A stretch of 39,661 bases of DNA from a virus: positions 1-39,661 of the IMG/VR virus record IMGVR_UViG_3300018933_000009; one strand, written 5' to 3'. Shown piece by piece: positions 30,639 through 39,422 of this stretch. The position numbers and the translations under genes were made by a program. The notes below the pieces were generated by a model. It was not told the DNA's origin, made no database searches, and worked only from the letters and a program-made list of their open reading frames with translations. The first letter of the stretch is position 1, and the number at the start of each line of letters is the position of its first letter.

Positions 30639-31181
30639 TCAGGCGGTGGTGGCCTGTGCTGCGCGCCAGGCGTCGAGCACGGTCTTCGGGACTCGGCCGC
30701 GGTCGGGGCAGGCGTGGCCGTTGGCCTTGGCCCATGCGCGGACTTCGGCGGCGGGGTAGTCGAGTGGCTTGCGGGTCTTCTTGGGCTTCGACGGGGCGAG
30801 TTCGGCTTCGCGGGCCTGGATCTCGGCGAGGCGTCGCTCCAGCTGCTCGCGCTCATCAGCGATTGCGGCCAGTTCCTGGTCTGCGGCGTGGCGGCGGCGC
30901 AGGCCGGTCAGGGCGACGCGGGCGCGGGTGGCCTGGTCGCGGATGTCCGGGTCGGGGTGCTCGTCGCCCCACTTGAGGAGCTGGCCGACCGGGATTGGTG
31001 CGGGCTCGGGGGTGGGGACGGCCTTCAGCTGGATGTTGACGGCCGGCGGTTCGGTGATCGGCTGGGCCATGGTGGGGCCTTCCTGTGGGTCGGGGAGGTG
31101 TAGGCGGTTGTGGCGGGCGGCTTCGGGTCCGCCCTGGGTGTCGATCTCGTCGAGGAGGCGGCGGAAGGCGGCGATGGTCAT
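30639..31181 (-). CDS. Lsr2-like DNA-binding protein
   Basis: The C-terminal segment (about 143-176) is EVRAWAKANGHACPDRGRVP followed by a helix ending AWRAAQ, matching the Lsr2 DNA-binding domain with its RGR AT-hook-like tip. A long charged coiled-coil-like helix (85-128) precedes it in place of the Lsr2 dimerisation barrel. The ATG at 31181 overlaps the replication gene stop by 4 bp and has GGAGAGG ahead; a second start at 31070 (GGAAGG ahead) would give 143 aa. It may silence AT-rich DNA or compete with host Lsr2. Confidence 0.85.
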   Translation of the reverse strand: MTIAAFRRLLDEIDTQGGPEAARHNRLHLPDPQEGPTMAQPITEPPAVNIQLKAVPTPEPAPIPVGQLLKWGDEHPDPDIRDQATRARVALTGLRRRHAADQELAAIADEREQLERRLAEIQAREAELAPSKPKKTRKPLDYPAAEVRAWAKANGHACPDRGRVPKTVLDAWRAAQATTA

Positions 31182-31996
31182 GCGGGTCGCCTCTCCGGGT
31201 TGGTGGTGGCGAGGTATCGCTCGCAGCCGTGGCAGAGGTCGCGGCCGGGGCGGATGAGGGGGATGTCGCATTCGCGGCAGCGGCCGGCGGTGGCGGGGGG
31301 TGGCGGTCCGGCGTTGGGGCGCTCGGGGTGGGGGTGTTCCTGGTGATCGATCTGCTCACCGGTGGGCCCATCTACCTGAGGTTGAGGAACCACCTCAGCC
31401 CCGTCATGGGAAATCCATGGGAACCCCCCTGGGTTGTTCGGGGCGCTGTCCCCCGAACCGGTCGGGGGACTGTCCCCCGAACTCATACGGGGCGCTGTCC
31501 CCCGAACTTCTTCAGCCGTACCGCCGGTAAGTTCGGGGGACTGTCCCCTGTTCTGGTTCGGGGCGCTGTCCCCCGAACTTCCCCCCTGCTGATCCCACGC
31601 CGGGGACCGCTTCCGGGCGGTCGACCGGAGGTGGTCCTCGGCGGCCTGCCAGTCCGGGAACGGGTGCACGACGATCACGTACCGGGCCGCCCGGCCGCGC
31701 TTGCGCTCGCCGAGCACCTGGACAACGCCGGCGAGCCGCGCGGCCTCCAGGTAGCGGCGGGCTTCCTTCTCGTCGCAGCAGGCGGCCTTGGCGATGTCCT
31801 GGATGCGGATGGGCTTGCGGTCGGAGGAGAACGCGATCTCTCCGGTGGCGTTGGCGAGGTTGCGCAGCTGGCAGAGGAGCAGGGGCAGGGTGGACCGTCG
31901 CAGGTAGGTGGACATCTGGCGGGTCCACTTCCACGACAGGGCGTTGCCGTAGGCGTTCGGCACGCCGCCGCTGGTGCGGCTGTCCTGCTCGTCCAT
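31178..31996 (-). CDS. Replication initiation protein candidate with winged helix
   Basis: The 272-aa product has a winged-helix-like domain at about 35-110 (STLPLLLCQLRNLANATGEI, IRIQDIAKAACCDEKEARRY, RGRAARYVIVV), a low-complexity linker with repeated SSGDSAPN (about 140-187) and a C-terminal zinc ribbon (CRECD and CHGC). The linker is encoded by five iteron-like palindromes, as in lambda O, whose origin lies within its gene. The ATG at 31996 is chosen; an in-frame GTG at 32002 is also possible. No helicase or loader gene is visible nearby, so host helicase is probably recruited. Confidence 0.72.
   Translation of the reverse strand: MDEQDSRTSGGVPNAYGNALSWKWTRQMSTYLRRSTLPLLLCQLRNLANATGEIAFSSDRKPIRIQDIAKAACCDEKEARRYLEAARLAGVVQVLGERKRGRAARYVIVVHPFPDWQAAEDHLRSTARKRSPAWDQQGGSSGDSAPNQNRGQSPELTGGTAEEVRGTAPRMSSGDSPPTGSGDSAPNNPGGFPWISHDGAEVVPQPQVDGPTGEQIDHQEHPHPERPNAGPPPPATAGRCRECDIPLIRPGRDLCHGCERYLATTNPERRPA
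31436..31578. repeat. Five palindromic iterons inside the replication gene (candidate origin)
   Basis: Five 23-bp units begin at 31436, 31460, 31485, 31531 and 31556. Each is a near-palindrome with arms GTTCGGGG and CCCCGAAC around a CGCTGTC or GACTGTC centre. Units 1 and 5 are identical; others differ at 2-6 positions. Spacing is 24, 25, 46 and 25 bp, so roughly every two helix turns with one slot empty. They lie in-frame in the coding sequence, giving SSGDSAPN-type peptide repeats. Confidence 0.82.
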
Positions 31997-32055
31997 GCTC
32001 ACGCGGGGGTCTCTCTCGTGCGGGGTGGTGAACCGTTCCGGCGGGGCCGGTGGGG

Positions 32056-32089
32056 GCCCGGGACGGCGTCCTGCGGGGCCGTCCCGGGC
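32056..32089 (-). terminator. Hairpin within the early operon, before the replication gene
   Basis: A 12-bp stem (32056-32067 with 32078-32089) and 10-nt loop lies between the stop of the 146-aa gene and the replication gene. It may attenuate early transcription or be read through by an antitermination mechanism. Confidence 0.6.
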
Positions 32090-32825: not shown

Positions 32826-33049
32826 TGGGCCCGCCCCTTCCGCGTGAACGTGTTGCACGTCCAGCAGCGGCGGCCGTAGCGCCCGTAGGCGTGCAGCCGG
32901 TACGTGTCCTCGGCCGGGCAGTAGCCCCAGTCGGTGACCTCGCCCGGGTGGGTGGTGGCCGGGGTGAAGTACCAGCGGGACAGCAGGGCGCCGGAGGCCA
33001 GCGAGAGGACGAGGACGAGGGCGCCGAGGGCGATCTCCCACTCGGTCAC
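32822..33049 (-). CDS. Single-TM protein with zinc-ribbon-like end, 75 aa
   Basis: GTG at 33049 overlaps the ERF stop by 4 bp. A membrane segment at 5-26 (EIALGALVLVLSLASGALLS) is followed by a domain with C44 and RCWTC, which could form a zinc site. Function unknown. Confidence 0.62.
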   Translation of the reverse strand: MTEWEIALGALVLVLSLASGALLSRWYFTPATTHPGEVTDWGYCPAEDTYRLHAYGRYGRRCWTCNTFTRKGRAQ

Positions 33050-33849
33050 GACGTCACCCCCGGTCCGGGCTGACGCGCAGCGACGCGCTCGTTGTAGTGG
33101 CGCAGGCCGAGTGCGTCGAGGGTTTCCTCGTCGCCGTTCTCGTTCTGCACCAGCACGTGCAGCATCCCGGCGCTGCGAAGCTCGTAGCTGATCTGCTCCA
33201 GGCGCCCGGGGGACGTCTGCGGGTTGACGATCTCGTCGCGGTAGTCGTTCGCCGACCGCTGCGGGGCCTCGCCCCGCTCGACGTGAGCCGTCTCGGGCTC
33301 GGGGTCGCCCGTCGGGATCATGCCGGTGTTGAACAGCAGCGCCCGCAGCGCGAGGGACTGCGCCTTCGCGGTGCCCTTGTCGCCCGAGTCGAGGGATTCG
33401 CCGGCCGACTTCAGCAGCGGCAGGCTGTCGCCCTTGGGGCCGACGATCTGCCACGTCACCACGACGGTGCACTCCCGCATCGGGTTACCTCGGCTGGACT
33501 TGGTGTCGCGGTAGGACGTCTGCATGTCGACGGCCATCACGTTGATGCCGTGGCGCAGCGTGGCCGGGCCGAACGCGTTGAGGGCGGACTCGATACCGCG
33601 GAAGTGGTACTTCAGCTTGCCGTTCTCAACGTGCCGGTCGCTCTTGGCAACGGCCCGCACGTCGGTACGGACCCGCAGCCACGCGATGTGCACCGGCACC
33701 ATGTCGGGGGTGGGGTAGTCCTCGCGGGCCTCGAAGTCGTAGGCGGGCAGCGGCTCGCTCGCGGCCGGGGCGGTGAAGTCGGCGGTGGGGTGGACCACCG
33801 GGGCCGTGCCGCTGGCGTGCTGCTCGGCGCGCTCGGTCAGGGACGTCAT
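33046..33849 (-). CDS. ERF-family single-strand annealing protein
   Basis: The 267-aa product has the family blocks YHFRGIESALNAFGPATLRH (81-100) and GESLDSGDKGTAKAQSLALR (150-169) followed by LLFNTGMIPTGD. ERF proteins bind ssDNA ends and anneal complementary strands during phage recombination and concatemer formation. The ATG at 33849 overlaps the exonuclease stop by 4 bp, so the two are coupled as in lambda Red-type pairs. Confidence 0.92.
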   Translation of the reverse strand: MTSLTERAEQHASGTAPVVHPTADFTAPAASEPLPAYDFEAREDYPTPDMVPVHIAWLRVRTDVRAVAKSDRHVENGKLKYHFRGIESALNAFGPATLRHGINVMAVDMQTSYRDTKSSRGNPMRECTVVVTWQIVGPKGDSLPLLKSAGESLDSGDKGTAKAQSLALRALLFNTGMIPTGDPEPETAHVERGEAPQRSANDYRDEIVNPQTSPGRLEQISYELRSAGMLHVLVQNENGDEETLDALGLRHYNERVAARQPGPGVTS

Positions 33850-34892
33850 GCGGTGAACTCCTCGCGCACGTACTTGGGGATGGCGATGCGGTCGTGCGCG
33901 ACGTCGGTCACGCAGGCTCGGTACGCCTCGGGGAACTCCTCGGCGAGACGCGCGAGATCGGGCGTCTTTCGGAACGACTGCTCGATGGAGAAGAAGGGCC
34001 GCTCCTGCCGGACGGCGGCCTGTGCCGGGCCGAGGACGCCGAGGAGCTTCGCCTTCGCGGCCTTCTTCCGGCGCTTGCCCTCAGCCTCCAGGGCGGCGGC
34101 CTCCATGTACTCGGTCATCGCGTCGACCGCGTCCAAGTCGCGGTCGACGACGACGGCGCCCTCACGGTCGGGGTGCAGCCGGTCGTACAGGTCGATCAGG
34201 GCGTCCGGCGGTTCCTCGCCGGTCACGGCCGGCGGGCGGCCGGGGACGATGTGGTCGTGCCACAGGCGGGACGCCTCGGCGTGCAGGTAGGCGACCAGCT
34301 TCAGGTGTTCCTCGCGGCGCACGGTGTACTGCCGGTAGTCCTGTCCGCCGATCAGGCACACGACGTGGATGTGGTCGAGGCCGGTCACGAGGATCTGCCA
34401 CAGCACCTGTGCGAGGACGTCATCGGGCGGGCCCTGCCGCCAGAGGTTCGCAACGAACGCGTTGCGGGTCTTGACCTCCAGCGCGCACACGGACCGCCGG
34501 GACCGATCGAGGGGGCACTCGGTGCACAGCCGGTCGAGGGTGCACATCGCCCAGGGCTCGTCCACGTTGGCGAGCAGGCCGATGGGCTCGACCACGGTGC
34601 GGTTGCGGCGGGCCCAGTCGCGGGCGAGGGGTTCCTCGAACAGCACGCCGAAGTGGGCGGCGTCGCTGAACTCGTCGTCGTGCGGCAGTCGGCCGAGCTT
34701 GTCGTGGAAGACGTGCAGCGGCGTCTTGAAGCCGGACAGGTTCATCACGGCGGGCAGGTCGCTGGAGCCGATCCCGCGGCGCCGGGCGTCGAGCCAGACG
34801 TCACGCGGAGCGGTGTGCGGGAGGACGAGTCGGCCGGTGGGGACCGGGCCGGCGGCCGAGGCGTGAGCCCCGGCCTGCACGGTGGTCGTCAT
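33846..34892 (-). CDS. YqaJ-type (lambda-like) recombination exonuclease
   Basis: The 348-aa product has IGSSDLPAVM (41-50), FGVLFEEPLARDW (81-93), D120 in MCTLDRLC, the EVK motif (LEVKT, E139 and K141) and QVLWQ (162-166), all typical of this nuclease family. It degrades one strand of dsDNA ends to give substrate for the ERF partner encoded next. The ATG at 34892 overlaps the preceding stop by 4 bp. Confidence 0.93.
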   Translation of the reverse strand: MTTTVQAGAHASAAGPVPTGRLVLPHTAPRDVWLDARRRGIGSSDLPAVMNLSGFKTPLHVFHDKLGRLPHDDEFSDAAHFGVLFEEPLARDWARRNRTVVEPIGLLANVDEPWAMCTLDRLCTECPLDRSRRSVCALEVKTRNAFVANLWRQGPPDDVLAQVLWQILVTGLDHIHVVCLIGGQDYRQYTVRREEHLKLVAYLHAEASRLWHDHIVPGRPPAVTGEEPPDALIDLYDRLHPDREGAVVVDRDLDAVDAMTEYMEAAALEAEGKRRKKAAKAKLLGVLGPAQAAVRQERPFFSIEQSFRKTPDLARLAEEFPEAYRACVTDVAHDRIAIPKYVREEFTA

Positions 34893-35104
34893 CGGGCGCC
34901 ACCCCCGGCGGCGTTGATCCACTGCTGGACGTCGATGCTGCGTCCGGCGCCCTGGGGGGCGATCAGCGCGGTCGCGGCGGCGAGCGCGGCGGTCGCGTGG
35001 GCGGTGGCCAGCTGCGCCGCGACGAGCGCGGCGGCCTGGTCGTCCATGCCCTTGGCCTGCCGGGACAGGCGCTCGAACTCTCGGTAGTGCTCGGGGCCGG
35101 TCAT
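34889..35104 (-). CDS. Helical hypothetical protein, 71 aa
   Basis: The product starts MTGPEHYREFERLSRQAKGM and continues with a long alanine-rich helix (AALVAAQLATAHATAALAAA), then VQQWINA. It overlaps both neighbours by 4 bp. Such small helical proteins are often next to YqaJ/ERF genes in Streptomyces phages; function unknown. Confidence 0.65.
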   Translation of the reverse strand: MTGPEHYREFERLSRQAKGMDDQAAALVAAQLATAHATAALAAATALIAPQGAGRSIDVQQWINAAGGGAR

Positions 35105-38450: not shown

Positions 38451-39422
38451 TCAGCCCAGCCGATCAGCCGGTGACAGCCGGGCATGTGCCGACCGAGCCC
38501 GCTCGGCGCCGGCCGACGCCGCGTAGCGCGACAGCATCTGACGCGACCGCCAGCCGGTGATGCGCATCAGGTCGTCCTCGTTCCCGCCGTTCACCTTCCA
38601 CAGGTGGGCAAAGGTGTGCCGGAACTGGTGCGGGTGCAGCGGCTCGATCCCTGCCTCTGCACACCGCCGCTTCAGCAGCTTGTTCACGCCCGAGATCGTC
38701 AGCCGGTGCCCGTTGGCGCGGTCGCCCCACCACAGCCACATGTCCTCGTCGAGCGGTCGGCCCTTGTGTTTCGCCGCGGCCCGCAGGTACCGGTCGAGGG
38801 CAGCCGCGCAGGTGCGGCCGAACGGCACCGACCGCCACTTGTCACCCTTGCCGAGGACGCGTAGCACCATCATGTCGAGGTCGAGGTCGCCGACCCGACG
38901 CTCAGTCAACTCGCTGAGTCGAACGCCCGTGTCGAGGAACAGCATCAGGATCGCGGTGTCGCGGCGGTCGATGTAGCTCCGGCCCTTGCAGACCTTGAAC
39001 AGCGCCGCAAGGTCTTCCTCGGGGATGACGGGCACCTCGGTCTCGGGCACGGCCGGCGGCTTCATTGTCCGCATGGGGGAGCGGTCGATCTCCTCCTCGT
39101 CCAGCAGCCAGTTGAAGAAGGTCTTCAGGGCGCGGAAGTGCTGGTGTGCGTTCGCCGGGCTGGTCCGCTGGATCGTGGCGGCGATGTACGCCTCGATGTG
39201 CTCGCGGTGCACCTCGTCCAGGTCGGTCGGCGCGGGTCGGCCGGTGTTGCCGTCGTCGTCGGCGACGGGCCGGTACCCCTCTTCCGGGTCGAGGAGGAAG
39301 CGAGTGAACGATCTGACAGCGTTTCCGTAGATGCGGATGGTGTTGTCGCTCTTGTTCTGGGATTTCAGGGCGCGCAGCCAGGAGGCAGCCATCGGCCCGA
39401 TGTTGTAGCGCTCATCTGCCAT
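38451..39422 (-). CDS. int: Tyrosine integrase
   Basis: The 323-aa recombinase has an N-terminal SAM-like core-binding domain (about 5-115) and catalytic residues R168 (TGVRLSELTE), K192 (GKGDK), H265 and R268 (HQFRHTF), W291 in place of the second His, and nucleophile Y300 (MLSRYA). It catalyses integration into the tRNA-Arg gene 57 bp away at attR. Start is ATG at 39422. A copy of the switch operator overlaps the promoter region, suggesting control by the phage repressor. Downstream it is closed by a strong hairpin. Confidence 0.95.
   Translation of the reverse strand: MADERYNIGPMAASWLRALKSQNKSDNTIRIYGNAVRSFTRFLLDPEEGYRPVADDDGNTGRPAPTDLDEVHREHIEAYIAATIQRTSPANAHQHFRALKTFFNWLLDEEEIDRSPMRTMKPPAVPETEVPVIPEEDLAALFKVCKGRSYIDRRDTAILMLFLDTGVRLSELTERRVGDLDLDMMVLRVLGKGDKWRSVPFGRTCAAALDRYLRAAAKHKGRPLDEDMWLWWGDRANGHRLTISGVNKLLKRRCAEAGIEPLHPHQFRHTFAHLWKVNGGNEDDLMRITGWRSRQMLSRYAASAGAERARSAHARLSPADRLG

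Follow-up and report, generated by a model that had tools for sequence, protein, structure and literature searches.

A candidate lambda O-like replication initiator gene with an iteron array in its own coding sequence in temperate Streptomyces phages

The stretch of DNA analysed here, referred to as the window, is IMG/VR virus record IMGVR_UViG_3300018933_000009 at its full length of 39,661 base pairs (bp), the gene content of which reads as that of a temperate tailed phage. The analysis centred on a candidate replication initiator gene at 31178-32002 on the minus strand, an open reading frame (ORF) of 274 codons that starts at a GTG codon or at a nearby one. The encoded protein comprises a winged helix-turn-helix (wHTH) domain at about residues 13-130, a linker and a C-terminal CxxC...CxxC segment, and the DNA coding for the linker, between the two flanking parts, carries an array of near-palindromic repeats, or iterons. 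A search with the pattern GTTCGGGGNNCTGTCCCCNGAAC, allowing up to three mismatches, returned exactly five 23-bp sites at 31436-31578, all inside this gene, with no other in the whole record and none in 100 dinucleotide shuffles of the window used as control; the five near-palindromes claimed for a wHTH gene in the preliminary description were therefore recovered. All are on the minus strand and were located by pattern search and homologue comparison: iteron 1 (GTTCGGGGGACAGCGCCCCGAAC) at 31556-31578, iteron 2 (GAACAGGGGACAGTCCCCCGAAC), in the second reading frame, at 31531-31553, iteron 3 (GTTCGGGGGACAGCGCCCCGTAT), in the third reading frame, at 31485-31507, iteron 4 (GTTCGGGGGACAGTCCCCCGACC) at 31460-31482, and iteron 5 (GTTCGGGGGACAGCGCCCCGAAC), adjoining the downstream element described below, at 31436-31458. 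The start-to-start spacing is 24, 25, 46 and 25 bp, so that the earlier statement of a spacing of mostly 24-25 bp holds for three of the four gaps and fails for the fourth.

It can be observed that the iterons are read in three frames, as SGDSAPN, RGQSPEL and VRGTAPR, which rules out a repeat in the peptide as their explanation. When the linker was recoded synonymously with the codon usage of the family, a mean of 0.72 core copies resulted, with a maximum of 3 in 400 recodings, against the 5 observed, which indicates that the peptide does not force the iteron DNA. In 54 homologue consensuses, complementarity is almost invariable at the position pairs 5/19, 7/17 and 11/13, whereas 10/14 shows it in only 10/54. 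Since the centre of the iteron is not fully symmetric, each copy has a direction, and all five in the window share one orientation.

Homologues were sought in phages, viral contigs and genome contigs, and in 393 genomes of the host genus, which yielded 54 distinct proteins of at least 180 residues. All sources that bear a name are Streptomyces phages or genomes; the named phages are OnionKnight (gene 46) and Chymera (gene 45), in both of which the product is called a hypothetical protein. The gene is present in 20 of the 393 sampled genomes, 4 of them known beforehand, and some homologues reside within large chromosomal contigs. An array of at least four iterons occurs at the equivalent place in all 54 homologues, usually in three reading frames, with a spacing of 25 or 36, 46, 25 and 24 in the main group. 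Retention of the iterons and their spacing in several frames, while the peptide changes, argues that the DNA and not the peptide is selected. This is the opposite of the outcome that would have spoken against the earlier description, namely homologues that keep the peptide and lose the palindromes. When a strict pattern was searched in 22 whole phage records, one cluster each was found in 14 matching records of this protein family (the window and 13 others). Three divergent records of the family and four of five records of a second wHTH family, introduced below, gave no match, which is attributed to their different cores, and the fifth second-family record gave a single isolated weak match.

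The core of the iteron differs between phages (GGGGGAC..., GGGTCAC..., GGGCCAC..., GGGCCCC...), the arms GTTCGGG/CCCGAAC are mostly constant, and copies inside one phage are mostly alike. In a first set of 38 homologues, aspartate at residue 77 accompanied the core GG in 26/26 cases and serine, arginine or asparagine accompanied another core in 12/12, and no other column of the wHTH domain tracked the core nearly as well. In the full set of 54, D77 occurs with G8 (34/34), R77 with C8/G16 (7/7), and S, N or A77 with T8 or C8 (13/13), the last group having A16 in 12/13. Counted by single site, G8 was found in 175/178 for D77, C8 in 37/37 for R77, and T8 or C8 in 58/65 for S/N/A77. Residue 77 shares 1.06, 0.84 and 1.07 bits of information with iteron base pairs 8, 9 and 16, respectively; at all other iteron positions the value is at most 0.31 bits, and it is low at downstream positions too. 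In the window, the codon for Asp77 lies at 31772-31774 on the minus strand, and an AlphaFold2 model, confident for a wHTH fold at about residues 20-130 and of low confidence for the linker, places residue 77 directly before the recognition helix, which begins at model residue 77, that is residue 78 in the numbering used here. On a tree from which the helix columns (residues 66-91) had been left out, ten changes are needed for each of the two traits, residue 77 and iteron core, and the independent pairs on supported branches agree in 7/7 cases (sign test, p=0.0156). For example, L019 is a near neighbour of the window protein, yet has S77 and a TC core. Such covariation supports binding of the iterons by the encoded protein itself, and the simplest reading, for which the in-silico evidence is strong, is that the protein would bind the iterons of its own gene.

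Further observations concern specificity. One genome (G077) carries two homologues of different specificity, L113 and L125, of the D77 and R77 types, a pairing that would fit avoidance of cross-talk. In L019, L124 and L126, valine is found at residue 78 and the C at iteron position 4 is lost; residue 78 is a possible second specificity contact, a candidate with too few independent cases for a claim. An association of Q79 with A18 in one clade was set aside, as the independent changes were too few.

Directly after the last iteron, an element that the preliminary description had not included is found. A set of three CCCAxG direct repeats, at intervals of about 12 bp, occupies 29 bp at 31405-31433 on the minus strand (copies at 31428-31433, 31416-31421 and 31405-31410) and forms a candidate unwinding region common to the 54 homologues, in which the mean GC content is 0.57-0.60 at this stretch compared with mostly 0.70-0.76 on either side. 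An inverted repeat, CTGAGGT-N9-ACCTCAG, follows at 31376-31398 without assigned strand and is kept in most homologues; at its place L030 carries ACCTCAGCCACAG, which occurs in the second wHTH family too. Rare codons make up 44% of the CCCAxG stretch and 46% of the inverted repeat, whereas the wHTH domain has 9% and the C-terminal part 11%, which implies selection of the element as DNA. No covariation of the element with residue 77 was detected, which makes it improbable that the element is read through that part of the recognition helix; binding of a host factor, strand opening, or contact with another part of the initiator are possibilities for its role. A scan of viral contigs with CCCAxG alone was too loose and gave mostly unrelated matches, among which the ones preceded by an iteron array upstream belonged to the family of the window protein, including an extra member, L164.

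Family matches of the protein point in the same direction with varying force. The PHROG profile phrog_391, "replication initiation O-like", matches the window protein alone only at E 0.017, and it picks the initiator gene in 8 of 17 phage records, with a best E of 4.8e-6 (E for one genome), as well as the second family. No Pfam family, MarR included, was matched by the window protein above cut-off, and a PDB sequence search gave no significant relative. Foldseek against the PDB returned generic winged helices, the best being MarR-type regulators, none at E below 0.001; against viral models it returned one O protein (Min27) and one initiator amid many unnamed helix-turn-helix (HTH) proteins, to which little weight is given.

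The kind of origin in question is already known, from phage lambda. O of lambda is a winged-helix initiator, and a palindrome stands beyond the AT-rich tract of the lambda origin. In lambda and in Stx phage, the middle of the initiator gene O holds inverted-repeat iterons with an AT-rich tract next to them (PMC7466680). The window resembles this arrangement in having iterons within the candidate initiator gene followed by a lower-GC stretch and an inverted repeat, near recombination genes, and the downstream element strengthens the analogy. The two differ in that sequence similarity of the proteins is very weak, that lambda has four shorter iterons instead of five 23-bp GC-rich ones in three reading frames, and that the window phage has a C-terminal cysteine-rich segment and no P/DnaC-type loader gene that could be found. 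The Streptomyces linear plasmids pSLA2 and pSCL1 were reportedly described by Chang, Kim and Cohen in 1996 as having a "phage-like" central origin with iterons inside rep1, a lead only; tblastn of both wHTH families against plasmid records gave no match. Extrachromosomal mycobacteriophage prophages encode an HTH initiator, RepA, with the origin within or next to repA (PMC7157519). These are alike in being phage-encoded HTH initiators in actinobacteria, but RepA-type origins maintain the prophage as a plasmid with partition genes, whereas the window phage has an integrase. In the openly accessible literature, no description was found of the wHTH family, its iterons, the residue 77 relation or the absence of a loader.

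Taken together, it is likely that the gene encodes a lambda O-like replication initiator and that its linker doubles as the origin. By analogy with lambda, binding, unwinding, helicase recruitment and the start of replication may be pictured as follows. The wHTH domain would bind the five directional near-palindromic iterons, the resulting complex would strain and open the adjoining lower-GC CCCAxG region, and the C-terminal part would then recruit the replicative helicase of the host (probably DnaB, together with the host loader DciA). The lambda-like logic proposed earlier is strengthened by conservation of the iterons as DNA and by their covariation with residue 77, while replication itself is inferred. 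The earlier remark that no helicase loader lies beside the gene can be extended to whole records, since DnaC/IstB (PF01695) and DnaB_C (PF03796) had no match in the 22 phage records, the same searches being positive in control genomes. The phage may have a loader of some family other than DnaC/IstB. With no recognisable phage loader or helicase, it is reasonable to guess that host DnaB-DciA is used directly; Mycobacteria and many other bacteria use DciA and not DnaC/I (PMC5720831, PMC9865707).

The gene neighbourhood is also in favour of an origin. The gene follows those of a RecE/YqaJ-type exonuclease (33846-34922, minus strand) and an Erf annealing protein (33046-33849, minus strand), and this slot beside recombination genes supports the origin reading. 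Beyond it lie Lsr2-like and WhiB-like genes, with the large terminase, portal, protease and capsid genes farther along, all on the minus strand. A tyrosine integrase is encoded at 38451-39422, likewise minus. No other replication gene was recognised among the window ORFs scanned for families. A perfect 12-bp inverted repeat (32056-32089, no strand) precedes the initiator gene at a distance of about 54 bp, and a GC-rich hairpin of other sequence stands at a similar distance in many homologues (mean best arm 8.2, versus 5.2 in shuffles). It is perhaps a terminator or regulatory hairpin, and no part in the origin is ascribed to it. Cumulative GC skew climbs steadily between about 23 kb and 35 kb with no turn at the iterons, and is therefore uninformative on the origin.

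Several points weigh against an origin at this locus. Covariation tells which protein reads the sites and not where replication starts, seven independent pairs are a small number, and some long branches leave the tree unsure. Helix and linker may have travelled together through recombination, although such joint transfer would be favoured mainly if a match between them is required. The CCCAxG region is AT-rich to a modest degree only. Judged by sequence, the similarity of the window protein itself to known initiators falls below accepted cut-offs, and its predicted fold is that of a generic winged helix. The family scan covered a part of the window ORFs.

Other functions of the protein and its repeats have to be weighed. 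A transcription regulator, with the iterons as operators for its own gene or for following genes (Lsr2-like, WhiB), is unlikely. A generic wHTH with MarR-type proteins as its best solved-structure matches would suit such a function, and a copy of the own iteron lies upstream of the gene in two of the 54 homologues, L006 (4941; at -60) and L054 (5921; at -80), where it possibly serves autoregulation. The iterons, however, are located about 420-570 bases inside the gene, no convincing upstream copy was found in the other homologues, and the following gene is not conserved, being a methyltransferase in OnionKnight and Lsr2 or WhiB elsewhere. Five ordered copies with a conserved downstream element suit an origin better, and a general autoregulation model was rejected owing to the rarity of upstream copies.

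A small terminase subunit with a pac site in its own gene, as in P22-like phages, has little probability, although a DNA-binding protein with sites inside its own gene is a known theme of pac. The gene is about 8 kb from the large terminase and adjoins recombination genes, a separate small terminase (PF05119) is present in 3 of 17 related phage records, and the family matches are O-like, not terminase-like. Equally improbable is a centromere-like partition site or other segregation system, which the array resembles insofar as partition sites are repeats bound by a small DNA-binding protein (for example PMC6669507). Such a system sits poorly with the tyrosine integrase and with homologues in large chromosomal contigs; furthermore, no partition ATPase was recognised among the window ORFs scanned, and no plasmid record had a homologue by tblastn.

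The origin reading gains support from the second wHTH family, in which other repeats occupy a similar slot. About ten further phage contigs encode this different wHTH protein (L009, 5001-5912; L094-L104) in a neighbourhood similar to that of the window, with WhiB, Lsr2 and small genes in common; a search of the phage collection gave no member of this family. In its linker there are GGACAGCGTCC repeats and the conserved hairpin TCCCTACCTCCGGTAGGGA, and in most members ACCTCAGCCACAG comes next. Its wHTH domain matches the initiator profiles phrog_391 (O-like; 1.7e-7) and phrog_1032 (3.8e-7), and a profile comparison of the two families gave E 1.9e-5 with a probability of 77%. An alternative C-terminal module, LLLPVR...ALRAAAT...ELGxTQAxRVYG...TGT, occurs in L053 (6001-7005) and L104 (5001-5939), with a similar one in L089 (3001-4017), and this type is present across both families. 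Such a distribution suggests swapping of C-terminal tails between them, and the C-terminal types shared by both, with different repeats in the linker of each, imply that a wHTH domain, iterons in the linker and an exchangeable tail form a recurring design.

A wider proposal, offered tentatively, is that these proteins form a loader-less class of Streptomyces phage initiators. The residue 77 code (D with G8; R with C8/G16; S/N/A with T or C8 and A16) might let co-resident prophages hold separate origins, and the exchangeable C-terminal modules, shared by two wHTH families with different repeats, might recruit host DnaB-DciA directly. The locus provides a concrete, testable origin candidate for a common group of temperate Streptomyces phages, and natural switching of residue 77 together with the iteron core constitutes a ready-made experiment on change of origin specificity. 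If DnaB loading in these phages does proceed with no phage-encoded loader, helicase loading in DciA-using hosts could be studied in a small system, and small replicons would be available for Streptomyces vectors.
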